Below, one piece after another: positions 23,828 through 27,751 of a stretch of DNA of 64,000 nt. The translations under genes were made by a program, and so were the position numbers. The notes beneath the pieces were generated by a model that saw only the letters and a program-made list of their open reading frames with translations, did no database searches and had not been told where the DNA came from. The stretch is from Sphaerisporangium rubeum (lineage in GTDB: Bacteria > Actinomycetota > Actinomycetes > Streptosporangiales > Streptosporangiaceae): NCBI RefSeq assembly GCF_014207705.1, contig NZ_JACHIU010000001.1, positions 1,302,001 to 1,366,000 of the forward strand. The letters run 5' to 3'. Position 1 is the stretch's first letter. Every line of letters begins with the position of its first letter.

Positions 23828-24428
23828 GGCGCCGACGCGGCGGGACGTGGTACGGCGAATACGGCGCCGTCCCACGGCGGCCGGCCGGTCAATGGGGACG
23901 TTCAGCGGATCAGAACCGCATTCCAACTACCTCCACGCGCGTAAGTCCCACCCACGCCACGTACCCCCGCGCGGCGTGACCCCCCACCATCACGGCCCCT
24001 CGTCCCGGCGCCGACGCGGCGGGACGTGGTACGGCGAATACGGCGCCGTCCCACGGCGGCCGGCCGGTCAATGGGGACGTTCAGCGGATCAGAACCGCAT
24101 TCCAACTACCTCCACGCGCGTAAGTCCCACCCACGCCACGTACCCCCGCGCGGCGTGACCCCCCACCATCACGGCCCCTCGTCCCGGCGCCGACGCGGCG
24201 GGACGTGGTACGGCGAATACGGCGCCGTCCCACGCCGGTCGGCCGGTCAATGGGGACGTTCAGCGGATCAGAACCGCATTCCAACTACCTCCACGCGCGT
24301 AAGTCCCACCCACGCCACGTACCCCCGCGCGGCGTGACCCCCCACCATCACGGCCCCTCGTCCCGGCGCCGACGCGGCGGGACGTGGTACGGCGAATCCG
24401 GCGCCGTCCCACGCCGGTCGGCCGGTCA
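23828..24428 (+). repeat. 179-bp tandem repeat (three full copies and a partial fourth)
   Basis: Period exactly 179 bp, copies starting at 23828, 24007, 24186 and 24365. Each copy opens with a core, GGCGCCGACGCGG then GGGACGTGGTACGGCGAAT, containing inverted arms GGGACG/CGTCCC and GGCGCC. The last copy stops 10 bp short of the DsrE gene. Open frames inside are repeat artefacts. The core recurs at 44.7-44.9 kb. Together with the 16-bp array this fills the 922-bp gap 23517-24438. Confidence 0.95.
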
Positions 24429-24438
24429 GGGGGGACAG

Positions 24439-24801
24439 TCAGTAGACCAGAGCCTGGACGCCTTCGCCGAGTGCCTCCTCCACGAACGTCGGAGCCCCGG
24501 CGATGCGTACCCCGTCGATCACGTCGTCCGGCCCGATCCCCCGGCGCGCCGCGCACTGCGTGCAGACGGTGACCTTGCCGTTGGCGAGCACGATGTCCAG
24601 CAGGTCGGCCAGCGGCGTGGCCTCCGGCAGGGTGAACTCCTTCGCGCGGTCAGGCAGGCCGTACCACGCCGACTCGCCGGTCAGCCACAGGGACACCGGT
24701 ACACCGCTCGCCAGTGCCGCCGCGGCGACTGTGAACGCCTGGTTGCACCGCTCAGGAGCGTCCATCCCGGCCGTCACCTTTATCACCATTGATCGCGCCA
24801 T
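24439..24801 (-). CDS. DsrE-family protein
   Basis: A 120-residue DsrE/DsrF-like protein. The fold is clear from MVIKVTAGMDAPERCNQAFTVA at the start (split into strand and helix) and CTQCAARRG with two Cys in the last third, where DsrE relatives carry their sulfur-accepting cysteine. Such proteins bind persulfide or act in tRNA thiolation relays; the actinobacterial type has no assigned partner. A TAGGCT hexamer sits 6 nt before the ATG. It is divergent to nitrobindin, and its 3' end borders the repeat array. Confidence 0.85.
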   Translation of the reverse strand: MARSMVIKVTAGMDAPERCNQAFTVAAAALASGVPVSLWLTGESAWYGLPDRAKEFTLPEATPLADLLDIVLANGKVTVCTQCAARRGIGPDDVIDGVRIAGAPTFVEEALGEGVQALVY

Positions 24802-24889: not shown

Positions 24890-25378
24890 ATGGATGCCCC
24901 AGAACTGCACCCCGCCCTGGAGCCGATCGCCTTCCTGCTCGGCAGGTGGGAAGGGGCCGGCGTAGGCGGCTACCCGTCGATAGAGAGCTTCCGCTACGGC
25001 CAGGAGATCGTCTTCGACCACAACGGCAAGCCGTTCCTGACCTACGAGAGCCGCACCTGGCTCCTCGACGACGACGGCAACATGGTGAGGCCCCTGGCCA
25101 GGGAGACCGGCTACTGGCGAGCCCAGCCCGACCGCCAGCTCGAAGTGGTCCTGGCCCACCCCACCGGCATCGTCGAGATCTACATCGGCGAGGTGGCCTT
25201 CCACAAGATCGAGCTGCGGACCGACGTGGTGGCCCGCACCGGCACCGCGAAGGAATACACCGCAGGCCACCGCCTCTACGGCCTCGTCAACGGCAACCTC
25301 ATGTACGCCTACGACATGGCCGCAGAAGGCCACCCCCTGACGTCCCACCTCTCCGCCGACCTCAAGAAGGTCTCCTGA
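24890..25378 (+). CDS. Nitrobindin-like heme-binding protein
   Basis: A 162-residue beta-barrel of the nitrobindin/THAP4 family (DUF1794). It has the signature LLGRWEGAGVGGYPSI (residues about 16-31) and RETGYWR near 70, and the C-terminal H in AAEGHPLTSHLSADL is positioned as the proximal heme ligand. Family members bind ferric heme and isomerise peroxynitrite to nitrate; this role fits a redox-active actinobacterium but is inferred. Start chosen by the leaderless promoter and by the family N-terminus (HP.L.PIAFLLG). Confidence 0.92.
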   Translation: MDAPELHPALEPIAFLLGRWEGAGVGGYPSIESFRYGQEIVFDHNGKPFLTYESRTWLLDDDGNMVRPLARETGYWRAQPDRQLEVVLAHPTGIVEIYIGEVAFHKIELRTDVVARTGTAKEYTAGHRLYGLVNGNLMYAYDMAAEGHPLTSHLSADLKKVS

Positions 25379-25428
25379 CCCGGAGAATCCGCCGGCCCCG
25401 CAAGGCCGCCGACCTGGAGAAAAGGAAA

Positions 25429-25519
25429 AACCCCGGGCGCGCTCCACCTCCACGAAGGAGGCGGGCCGGCTGGACCATGGAAGAAGTCCCACGACTTCCC
25501 CCGCCGGCTGCCCGGGGTT
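25429..25519 (-). terminator. Multi-stem terminator of the candidate RNA
   Basis: On the minus strand the outer 10-bp stem AACCCCGGGC/GCCCGGGGTT is followed by TTTTTCCTTTTC. It encloses two further hairpin domains, unusual for a plain terminator, and also faces the convergent nitrobindin gene. Confidence 0.6.
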
Positions 25520-25609
25520 CCGGTGTCTGCCTTGGATTACGCCGGACGCCACCCGCACCCCACAAGGAGGCAGGCCGTCTGGACGGAAGGTCCTGACTCA
25601 GGCGATGTC

Positions 25610-25651
25610 CTAGCGGACAGCCACCTCGCTAGTCCAATAATGACTAACCAT
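25610..25651 (-). CDS. 13-residue peptide ORF inside the candidate RNA
   Basis: Minus-strand ATG at 25651, stop TAG at 25610, encoding MVSHYWTSEVAVR. The SD AAAGGAGGTG lies 9 nt upstream, better than that of almost any protein gene in this window, which is why I list so short an ORF. One Trp, one Tyr and one His sit together (HYW). It may be a leader peptide, a regulated small protein or a ribosome landing site. Confidence 0.5.
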   Translation of the reverse strand: MVSHYWTSEVAVR

Positions 25652-25683
25652 TGTTCGGACCACCTCCTTTCTGCGTGCCTAGT

Positions 25684-25712
25684 ACGCTATGCGACCCCCG
25701 GATCAAAGGCAA
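25684..25712 (-). promoter_or_regulatory. Promoter of the candidate RNA
   Basis: Minus strand: -35 TTGCCT (25707-25712), 17-nt spacer, -10 TAGCGT (25684-25689); predicted start near 25677. Confidence 0.5.
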
Positions 25713-25780
25713 ACAATTAACCCCACCCCCACTGACCTGCACGTCCACCGCCCCCAGTCCTCTCACAGACAGTCCCCGAG

Positions 25781-25831
25781 CACACCGTCATGACGCGCAC
25801 ACCGTCATGACGCGCACACCGTCATGACGCG
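25781..25831. repeat. Three 17-bp repeats, each with a CGTCATGACG palindrome
   Basis: CACACCGTCATGACGCG occurs three times head to tail (25781, 25798, 25815). The central 10 bp of each is a perfect palindrome, the arrangement of a cooperative operator. It lies about 70 bp upstream of the minus-strand promoter at 25684-25712. No gene starts directly to its right. Confidence 0.8.
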
Positions 25832-26044: not shown

Positions 26045-26443
26045 TCATATCCGGACCTCGAACCACACCGTGCGACCCGCATCGTGCTGTCCCCACCCCC
26101 ACGACGAGGACAGCTCATGTACCATCCACAGTCCACGACCACCCTCGCTGAGCAGACTCGGCCGCTCCCGAACCTGTGGCATGGTCTCGGATGAGCCTTC
26201 GTCGGTCACTTCGACGCGAACCGTCTCGCCGTCGTCGTACACACGCAGGGTGACGACGCCGCCGTTCCGGCGTCCGGAGCCGGAATGCCTGACCGCGTTG
26301 GTGAAAACCTCGCTGACGAGCAACTCGATGTCCTCTACGGATCGCCTTCCGATTCGGCGCAGAGTGGAGCGTACGTAGGCACGAGCCACCTCGACCGAGC
26401 TGTCCAGGCCTGGAAGATCGACCTTGCCCACAAGTTCTGTCAC
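26045..26443 (-). CDS. RsbW/SpoIIAB-like ATP-binding anti-sigma-type protein
   Basis: A 132-residue stand-alone HATPase_c_2 domain. The N box reads ELLVSEVFTNAVRHSG (about 42-57), the G1 box VTDEGS and the G2 box GGRGLWMV; there is no dimerisation/phosphorylation domain. Such proteins act as serine kinases or anti-sigma factors. Next to the DUF5753 regulator and DUF397 protein it completes a WhiJ/AbaA-like trio common in actinobacteria with complex development. It is divergent to the regulator across a region with two palindromes. Confidence 0.9.
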   Translation of the reverse strand: MTELVGKVDLPGLDSSVEVARAYVRSTLRRIGRRSVEDIELLVSEVFTNAVRHSGSGRRNGGVVTLRVYDDGETVRVEVTDEGSSETMPQVRERPSLLSEGGRGLWMVHELSSSWGWGQHDAGRTVWFEVRI

Positions 26444-26499
26444 GGCTCATACCCCGTGATCTTCAGAGCGAGCGACATCCCGGTACTCCAAACCGATCT

Positions 26500-26549
26500 G
26501 CGATCACCGTACTTCTGTGATCGCTTGGTCTTATCCAACCTCCTTGGAT
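26500..26549. promoter_or_regulatory. Two palindromes between the divergent WhiJ-like genes
   Basis: GCGATCAC/GTGATCGC with a 9-nt spacer (26500-26524) and ATCCAA/TTGGAT with a 5-nt spacer (26533-26549). They lie 57 bp upstream of the RsbW-like gene and are plausible binding sites of the adjacent XRE regulator. The rest of 26444-26774 shows no gene I can support. Confidence 0.45.
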
Positions 26550-26774
26550 CACTCGGACTGCGTGACTGAAATGTTCTTTTCAGGTCTATAGCGTGTTTGG
26601 TGTGGATCGAGGGATCGCTGTGCTCGCGGCCTCGACCTTTCATATGCTGCGCCATGCATCGACCATCCCGTGGACAGCGCGGTATTTCTCAAGAATTGCA
26701 CGCCGACGGACGCCGTCCCGTGGGACGCTGGACGTATCAGGAATCGGTTCCGGAATAGTTGGATTGGCAGTGGC

Positions 26775-27569
26775 GTGGATGCTCGCGAGGCGACAGCCAA
26801 GTTCGGTGCCGAACTCCGGTACCACCGGCGACGTGCCGGCCTTTCCCAGGAGGCCCTGGCCGCGCGACTCCGCATCAGCCAGGGGCAGATCTCCAAGCTG
26901 GAACTTGCCTTACGGAAGCCGCCGCGAGACCTCTGCGGAGCCTTGGACCGTGTCCTGGCCCAGCAGGGCCACTTCATCGACCTGCACGACCGGTTGTTCG
27001 AGCCCAGACGCGGGGCGGACGAGTGGTTCCTGTCGTACCTCGATCTGGAACCCAGAGCTTCGGTCATCAGGTCGTGGGATCTCGCTCTGGTTCCTGGACT
27101 TTTCCAGACAGAGGAGTACGCACGGCTCATCTTCACCGGCGGTCTGGTCAAACGACACGAGATCGAAGATCGGGTCAATGCGAGACTCGCCCGGCAGGAG
27201 ATTCTGGAGCGAGAGGACTGTCCGGAGGTCTACGCACTGATCGACGAGGGGGTTCTCTACCGTCCGATCGGCGGGCCGGCGGTGATGCTGGGCCAGTTGA
27301 AGCGGCTCGTGGAGGCGAATCGGCATCCGGCGGTGTGTCTGCAGGTCGTCCCATACGGAGCACAGACCACGACCGGATTGACAAGCGGCTTCGTCATGGT
27401 CCAACTCCCTGATGGGACTGCGTACGTATCCGTGGAATCCGCTGGAGCGAGCACACTCAGCAGTGACCATGAGTTGATCCAGCAGTCCGTCGCCAGGCTC
27501 GATAGGCTACGGACAGAAGCCTTGAACCGTATACAGTCCACAAATTTAATCGAAGAAGGTATAAAATGA
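26775..27569 (+). CDS. WhiJ-like XRE regulator with DUF5753
   Basis: A 264-residue protein: an N-terminal Cro/CI helix-turn-helix (residues about 8-65; LSQEALAARLRISQGQISKLE) and a C-terminal DUF5753 domain of about 170 residues (LVPGLFQTEEYAR, RQEIL, IDEGVL.RPIGG, VQLPDG). Relatives such as WhiJ repress developmental genes and are relieved by a partner DUF397 protein. GTG 26775 puts the first residues directly before the HTH; GTG 26670 would add 35 residues of unlike character. It overlaps the DUF397 gene by ATGA. Confidence 0.92.
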   Translation: MDAREATAKFGAELRYHRRRAGLSQEALAARLRISQGQISKLELALRKPPRDLCGALDRVLAQQGHFIDLHDRLFEPRRGADEWFLSYLDLEPRASVIRSWDLALVPGLFQTEEYARLIFTGGLVKRHEIEDRVNARLARQEILEREDCPEVYALIDEGVLYRPIGGPAVMLGQLKRLVEANRHPAVCLQVVPYGAQTTTGLTSGFVMVQLPDGTAYVSVESAGASTLSSDHELIQQSVARLDRLRTEALNRIQSTNLIEEGIK

Positions 27570-27751
27570 TGGAGTTGACGTTCCGTAAGTCCTCGTACTC
27601 CGGTGAAGGCGGCCAGTGCGTCGAGATCGCCGACTTGATTTCCAACGTGGTGGTCCGCGACAGCAAAGTGCCTGACGGTCCGACGCTCGTATTTCCCAGA
27701 GACGAGTTCGTCGCATTCCTGCGCGGGCTCAAGGTATCCGTGCATGGCTGA
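27566..27751 (+). CDS. DUF397 protein, partner of the WhiJ-like regulator
   Basis: A 61-residue DUF397 protein (FRKSSYSGEGGQCVEIA, VVVRDSK, LVFPRDEFVAFL). DUF397 proteins are paired with DUF5753 regulators and are thought to bind and modulate them. It starts inside the regulator stop (ATGATG). Confidence 0.93.
   Translation: MMELTFRKSSYSGEGGQCVEIADLISNVVVRDSKVPDGPTLVFPRDEFVAFLRGLKVSVHG

Follow-up and report, generated by a model that had tools for sequence, protein, structure and literature searches.

A minus-strand RF02471 RNA of Sphaerisporangium rubeum built around a conserved mini-ORF: a putative ribosome-gated RNA switch

The minus strand of the window (the whole 64,000-nt stretch of the Sphaerisporangium rubeum genome that was analysed) carries a member of the Rfam family RF02471 (Ms_IGR-5, "Actinobacteria sRNA"), whose model (positions 1–184) matches the entire element with 55.2 bits at a gathering score of 45. 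The element is read here as the local copy of a free-standing RNA switch with a translated mini-ORF, which the ribosome would gate; the probability of this reading is put at about 0.6. A very short conserved frame and the best 16S complement of the window form the core of this widespread RNA, which is filed as an sRNA. Were ribosomes indeed to gate it, the RNA would directly sense ribosome supply or the integrity of the anti-Shine-Dalgarno (anti-SD) sequence, in Actinobacteria and beyond. The preliminary description, made from the letters of the sequence, missed the family. The examined excerpts of the family literature mention neither the ORF nor the 16S complement nor the wider range; relative to these excerpts the anatomy given below, including helices P0–P2, and a testable mechanism for this known family are new.

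Read directly, the element comprises promoter boxes, an extended SD, a mini-ORF, stems and a U-tract, in that order. Its main parts and its neighbour are as follows (R1 is a covariance model built on the family alignment A1).

25707..25712, minus strand: −35 box TTGCCT, read directly; 58 of 77 copies (window included) have TTG here, with a TANNNT box 16–19 nt away
25684..25689, minus strand: −10 box TAGCGT, with a 17-nt spacer to the −35 box; TANNNT at the same place in 70 of 77 copies (window included)
25425..25676, minus strand: predicted transcript of about 252 nt with putative start and end; RF02471 match 25676–25422, R1 match 25676–25421
25657..25672, minus strand: extended SD AGAAAGGAGGTGGTCC, forming 16 bp (one of them G·U) with the 3' tail of the 16S rRNA
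25610..25651, minus strand: 13-codon ORF MVSHYWTSEVAVR, ATG 25651 to TAG 25610, read directly, with a conserved frame
24890..25378, plus strand: nitrobindin gene (PF08768), convergent neighbour, outside the RNA and 44 bp from it

The R1 score of the element is 144.8 bits, the window sequence itself being part of that model. The TTGCCT-N17-TAGCGT promoter of the preliminary description was recovered, with the box counts given above, as were its SD and 13-codon ORF, the former nearly perfect and the latter conserved. Its structured 3' part with a terminator also held, in the form of several stems filling about 180 nt between the stop codon and the U-tract (25430–25426).

The 16S tail GGCTGGATCACCTCCTTTCT is present at four places in the genome of the strain, and the 13-mer AAGGAGGTGRTCC occurs five times in the 7.5 Mb of this genome: four times opposite the 16S tails, on the antisense strands of the four 16S genes, and a fifth time in this RNA. 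Outside the rRNA antisense strands, the SD is the only such 16S complement in the genome. Its 16-bp duplex with the 16S tail amounts to −27.8 kcal/mol, against −8.7 kcal/mol for GGAGG alone. When 20-nt stretches of the window were scanned for binding of the 16S tail (every third base, both strands), the SD site was the best of 42,654 stretches (−29.8 kcal/mol), and the next site reached −21.4 kcal/mol.

The reading frame was counted in 77 copies (76 located by the covariance model plus the window), of which 75 are distinct. Before the GAGGTG motif, in-frame stops number 0 in 573 codons, compared with 118 in 630 and 34 in 621 in the other two frames; an in-frame ATG, GTG or TTG lying 2–8 nt 3' of GGTCC, with an open path to GAGGTG, was found in 72 of the 75 distinct copies, with 0 and 3 in the other frames. 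The stop codons of these copies are TAG (68), TGA (6) and TAA (1). The locus finder behind this count had required GAGGTG and an in-frame start, and it dropped one of 79 ids (L189, which is without ATG, GTG or TTG in frame yet scores 90.8 bits with R1); the count was therefore repeated without any frame, start or GAGGTG demand and with L189 restored. In this recount, GAGGTG is present in 78 of 78 model-located copies, a stop follows five codons after GAG-GTG in all 78, and an in-frame start at 1–9 nt is present in 73, the other five being without an in-frame ATG, GTG or TTG; with the 1–9 nt start window, a further start that is open to GAGGTG exists in one other frame in 20 of the 78 copies. 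Pattern-found copies were counted after 40 of the 120 listed pattern loci had been set aside by eye (30 as chance, 10 as Rhodobacterales). Among the matches listed, the 78 distinct pattern-found copies, which have GAGGTG by selection, show a start in frame in 68 and the five-codon stop in 77, and three of the ten without an in-frame start have a GTG one base before the counting window. Judged from the compared sequences, the reading frame, which in Actinobacteria mostly has 12–14 codons, is conserved, as would be expected of the translated ORF of a dual-function RNA. In L075, L085, L118, L147, L192 and L198 the frame would need a CTG start; the start place holds only ACG in L149 and L189 and only ATC in L156 and L193.

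Alignment A1 contains 66 of the 77 sequences; eight near-duplicates (L036, L039, L043, L045, L046, L047, L049, and L195) and three sequences with badly placed 3' ends (L038, L041, and L048) were left out of it, and L190, the window's own genome, was left out of the set. The helix labels P0–P5 were coined in this analysis. The paired segments of the window RNA are listed below.

25673..25675, minus strand: 5' arm of P0, pairing with 25627–25629 (A1 columns 3–6/54–57)
25627..25629, minus strand: 3' arm of P0, within the ORF (A1 columns 3–6/54–57)
25632..25635, minus strand: GGAC, pairing with GUCC of the SD at 25657–25660 (P1) or with GUCC of the terminator loop
25616..25625, minus strand: 5' arm of P2, GGUGGCUGUC, in the ORF; two-sided changes in 6 of 10 pairs, 7 of 10 pairs drawn unaided by RNAalifold
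25522..25531, minus strand: 3' arm of P2, GGCAGACACC, beside the terminator; two-sided changes and RNAalifold
25610..25615, minus strand: 5' arm of P3, containing the stop codon; two-sided changes in 6 of 7 pairs, 4 of 7 pairs drawn by RNAalifold
25540..25545, minus strand: 3' arm of P3, CCGGCG; two-sided changes and RNAalifold
25511..25520, minus strand: 5' arm of the terminator stem P4, 95.6% paired, two-sided changes in 9 of 10 pairs
25428..25437, minus strand: 3' arm of P4, from direct reading and covariation
25472..25475, minus strand: GUCC in the loop of the terminator hairpin, GUC in 66 of 66 and GUCC in 64 of 66 sequences
25601..25625, minus strand: predicted local hairpin with the stop codon in or beside its loop, excluding P2/P3, from folding and coevolution

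On A1, the P0–P5 model has 89.2% of its cells paired and two-sided changes in 29 of 40 pairs. Such changes fill 254 cells; the shuffled alignments average 77, and sliding the model gave no more than 74. Shuffling among related species inflates significance. Column pair 4–56, within the P0 columns, ranked first in an unsupervised scan of A1 (paired in 66 of 66 sequences, 29 two-sided changes); P0 joins the 5' leader to the bases just 5' of AGGTG. Across the family, P2 pairs GGUGGCUGUC with GGCAGNCACC next to the terminator, and P3 pairs the stop-codon region with YGGCG. P1, formed by the SD end and GGAC with the start codon in the loop, is 95.5% paired and free of two-sided changes; since it is nearly invariant, covariation speaks neither for nor against it. 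The pairing of GGAC with the terminator-loop GUCC (97.7% paired) is only suggested, because two-sided change is confined to a single one of its four pairs and to two sequences. RNAalifold drew P4 together with 7 of 10 P2 pairs and 4 of 7 P3 pairs, and a 3-bp hairpin inside the SD instead of P0 and P1. The window RNA folds better than 200 of 200 shuffles (z −3.99). The Rfam structure of RF02471, a family labelled as an Actinobacteria sRNA, has P3 and the terminator and is without P0, P1 and P2. Its first hairpin, between the SD and the P2 strand, forms its six pairs in 53–66 of the 66 sequences; its SD side is nearly invariant, so that the hairpin is neither supported nor refuted.

As deduced from sequence comparison, both the ORF frame and the RNA structure are well supported by conservation. 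The preliminary description had suggested a covariance model of relatives as a check and had named missing conservation or covariation of the stems and the ORF as grounds for refutation; conservation proved to be clear and covariation strong. Its 3' stems were retained, while P2, the main helix between the ORF end and the motif beside the terminator, and the 5'-leader helix had escaped it. It had also offered two segments, each with AAGGAGG and CTGGAC, as ribosome binders. Both lie on the plus strand, and the RNA reads CCUCCUU and GUCCAG; in the RNA they would therefore resemble an anti-SD, not an SD, and cannot serve as ribosome sites. From these segments, only the GUCC in the terminator hairpin loop is kept across the alignment, and the CCUCCUU copies in the RNA are by eye not conserved.

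The end of the ORF has two predicted partners. In the local fold, at least four pairs between the ORF end and the 16 nt after the stop are formed in 66 of 66 sequences, a count without control. The local partner binds with −13.1 kcal/mol in its own sequence and with −10.9 kcal/mol when taken from other species (0 of 100 shuffles), and none of 60 letter-shuffled partners was as good; the next 16 nt gave no such fit, 55 of 60 shuffles being as good. For the long-range partner, the values are −20.0 kcal/mol for its own and −17.1 kcal/mol for other species' partners (0 of 100 shuffles). The local and the long-range partner use the same ORF bases and thus cannot form together. The minimum free energy structure of the window RNA contains P1, the local hairpin and P4 and is without P2/P3, the local hairpin winning. 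Attenuator-like alternative pairings of the ORF end are accordingly predicted by folding, and they coevolve. A short ORF ahead of exclusive stems, as in a leader-peptide attenuator, is indicated by the sequence, the frame and this coevolution, with translation predicted.

The RNA is free-standing: it has promoter boxes and a terminator of its own, and no gene that it could control follows it. As long as the RNA is free, the SD end and the start codon would sit in hairpin P1, which the 16S tail would have to open for docking. The ribosome would then read the short ORF to the stop codon fixed within P2/P3 and, standing at the stop, would hold the strand shared by the local hairpin and the long-range P2/P3 beside the terminator hairpin. 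With a ribosome placed on the shared strand and then released, its arrival and release would determine how the 3' part folds. The ORF would count as a place to be translated and not as a source of peptide, and the output, as a guess, may be that the RNA signals the presence of 30S subunits whose anti-SD is free, or sequesters them. The docking site, the frame, the helices and the exclusivity of the partners can be read from the compared sequences; the opening of P1 and the choice of fold we infer, and the alternative folds with switching between them are predictions.

Two other accounts of the ORF and its SD have to be weighed, and both appear improbable. Were the element a micropeptide gene, the 12–14-residue product would act as a molecule and the RNA would merely be its mRNA. 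The conserved frame, start and stop agree with this, as do the Glu-Val present in every copy and the Thr two residues before the Glu in 59 of 73. However, the conserved residues are those whose codons are paired in P0, P1 and P2, whereas the N-terminal codons outside the helices are highly variable and the last three residues vary too; moreover, every one of the 78 copies has an unaltered GAGGTG, third positions included, which fits a constraint on the RNA. The RNA might also be a ribosome trap or reservoir, in which the very long SD duplex would hold the 30S subunit while the start codon is poorly used and nothing switches. The duplex energy with the 16S tail (−27.8 against −8.7 kcal/mol for GGAGG alone) and the distance of 11 nt between GGAGG and the start codon of the window speak for it. 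Ribosome reads on the homologs in M. abscessus and M. smegmatis, given in the excerpt of PMC4974804, do so as well and also count in favour of the gated switch; by the same excerpt, most characterised E. coli ncRNAs have a footprint too. A trap of this kind leaves the fixed position of the stop and the two rival partners of the ORF end unexplained.

The remaining accounts concern the role of the RNA as a regulator. That it is a base-pairing sRNA which merely happens to hold an ORF would suit its free-standing nature, its terminator and its Rfam listing as an sRNA, but the frame statistics (0 in-frame stops in 573 codons, the five-codon stop in 78 of 78 copies) make this quite unlikely; base pairing combined with translation is conceivable. 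Least credible is a transcription attenuator of a downstream gene. Its order of SD, leader ORF, alternative stems and terminator is that of the element, and a distant look-alike stands upstream of a same-strand arfB-like gene in five of ten listed Rhodobacterales loci; against it, the nitrobindin gene is convergent in the window, with nothing between it and the RNA, and it lies 3' of the RNA on the opposite strand in 62 of the 62 relatives' loci where it was found (62 of 201 scanned, many with short flanks), at up to 1 kb from the SD in 55 and within 400 nt in 44 of them. An attenuator of nitrobindin is ruled out by this gene order, no same-strand gene following the RNA. The preliminary description was right that no gene lies downstream and that the RNA ends against nitrobindin; as to its guess of an attenuator or a dual-function RNA, the alternative pairings and the conserved ORF speak for it, whereas the attenuated gene is missing from the window.

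Where the flanks of relatives are available, the RNA and a Fur-type gene are divergent. The distance from the end of this gene to the SD is 0.1–0.7 kb in most relatives with a Fur match and 2.2 kb here, where an ATPase-domain gene, an HTH/DUF5753 regulator gene and a DUF397 gene (window 26045–27751) stand between the two; given the greater distance, this three-gene stretch looks like a local insertion. A 17-bp unit, CACACCGTCATGACGCG, is repeated three times in tandem at window positions 25781–25831, some 70–120 bp upstream of the −35 box. On the other side, ORFs of identical or nearly identical translation begin every 179 bp (23847, 24026, and 24205) in window 23847–24792, near a cobQ-like gene, which points to a tandem repeat of about 179 bp.

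RF02471 was found in 54 of 60 related genomes (own included) at E 0.001, 53 of them above the family cut-off, and, with strict filters, in 57 of 296 genomes of the phylum at E 0.001, 26 of them above the family cut-off. The same searches at E 0.001 found it in 0 of 14 control genomes. The copy number is nearly always one per genome. According to the excerpts consulted, an RNA of this family was confirmed by RNA-seq in S. lividans (PMC8079986), forms an sRNA unit in S. avermitilis (PMC8780764), and corresponds in M. smegmatis to a transcript overlapping IGR-5 (PMC10454040). For the window element itself a small RNA is predicted, transcripts being known from these three species. The excerpts of PMC9094748 and PMC4633059, which deal with mycobacterial translation, do not name the RNA, and one literature collection, searched for ORF, SD and sRNA combined, gave no paper whose entry names the RF02471 ORF. 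A guessed name, scr4389, found no support. A phage or plasmid origin was also considered and dropped, the element having no phage match; its two PLSDB matches are on records of 11.85 and 2.66 Mb. The DNA pattern is present in 54 viral contigs; a single one of them reaches an R1 score of 20.5 bits, the others not being listed at E 0.1.

The pattern search yielded at least 120 loci, and among the matches listed R1 scores 77 of 120 at 40 bits or more. Of the 30 listed loci set aside as chance, R1 lists no more than two at E 1, scoring 12.8 and 11.7 bits. The high R1 scorers include records named Acidobacteria, Zixibacteria, Sumerlaeota, Nitrospirae, Deltaproteobacteria, and Rokuibacteriota (40.9–86.1 bits); all of them are metagenome assemblies, in which mis-binning is conceivable. 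The copy of L162, labelled Acidobacteriota, resembles those of Acidimicrobiia and is perhaps mis-binned. When 99 genomes from the phylum to which one Acidobacteria record belongs were searched independently of the pattern, 13 had a match, 12 besides the starting genome, and all 12 further loci hold the frame with the five-codon stop, such a frame being what the finder looked for. In 20 non-actinobacterial copies aligned to the model, an alignment that leans towards the model, 90.0% of cells are paired, P1 is paired to 75.0%, and the P5 letters are present in at most 4 of 20. In L123 and L154 (Bryobacterales records), the copy lies directly upstream of a frame that presumably encodes ribosomal protein L31.

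Several known systems resemble the element in part. Dual-function sRNAs are small RNAs with both a translated frame and base-pairing regulation of mRNAs in trans; like them, the RF02471 RNA is a small RNA that also holds a translated frame, translation here being predicted. In leader-peptide attenuators, a ribosome on a short ORF chooses between exclusive stems, as is proposed here; however, the regulated gene follows there and none follows here, and, unlike their leaders, the window ORF is without a run of codons for one amino acid. Among the sRNAs that belong to such attenuators is rnTrpL. The peTrpL system is of the same kind (PMC7298713).

The arfB-linked loci of Rhodobacterales (L057, L082, L087, L135, and L163, from ten listed, one of which ends right after the SD) share the extended SD and have a frame resembling VSRVILERGVGTVRG. 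Their R1 matches, upstream of the same-strand arfB-like gene, are weak (14.3–26.3 bits), and the distance from the SD to the arfB-like match is 205–251 nt; the protein downstream of L057 has a Pfam RF-1 match of 75.7 bits. RF01867 (CC2171, a Caulobacter sRNA) shows the same kind of extended SD with a short ORF, of 22–35 codons from the first start (18 loci); 6 of the 18 loci have UCAUUGUC in the ORF and, directly ahead of the terminator, a complementary GACAAUGG. Its peptide and helices differ from those of RF02471. The window element scores 14.2 bits (E 0.99) with the CC2171 model, below the 75-bit cut-off, and with R1 10 of 19 CC2171-found loci score 12.9–16.5 bits, the other nine not being listed at E 0.1. 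At a single Rhodobacterales place the models of both families match, with E 1.8e-4 and E 2.2e-5; the second of these matches stays below its own cut-off. No paper on CC2171 and Caulobacter was found in the one literature collection searched. The two families are alike, their kinship is unproven, and the shared SD may explain the likeness. It is conceivable, if rather doubtful, that RF02471 would be the actinobacterial branch of a multi-phylum group of ribosome-gated RNAs, sensing subunits with a free, intact anti-SD by a unique, near-complete complement of the 16S tail, with the alphaproteobacterial CC2171 and the RNAs linked to arfB, a ribosome-rescue gene, as other branches. Several CC2171 RNAs (L229–L246) contain an internal CUGGAUC...GCCUC stretch similar to the 16S tail; judged by eye, with no control, it could pair with their own SD.
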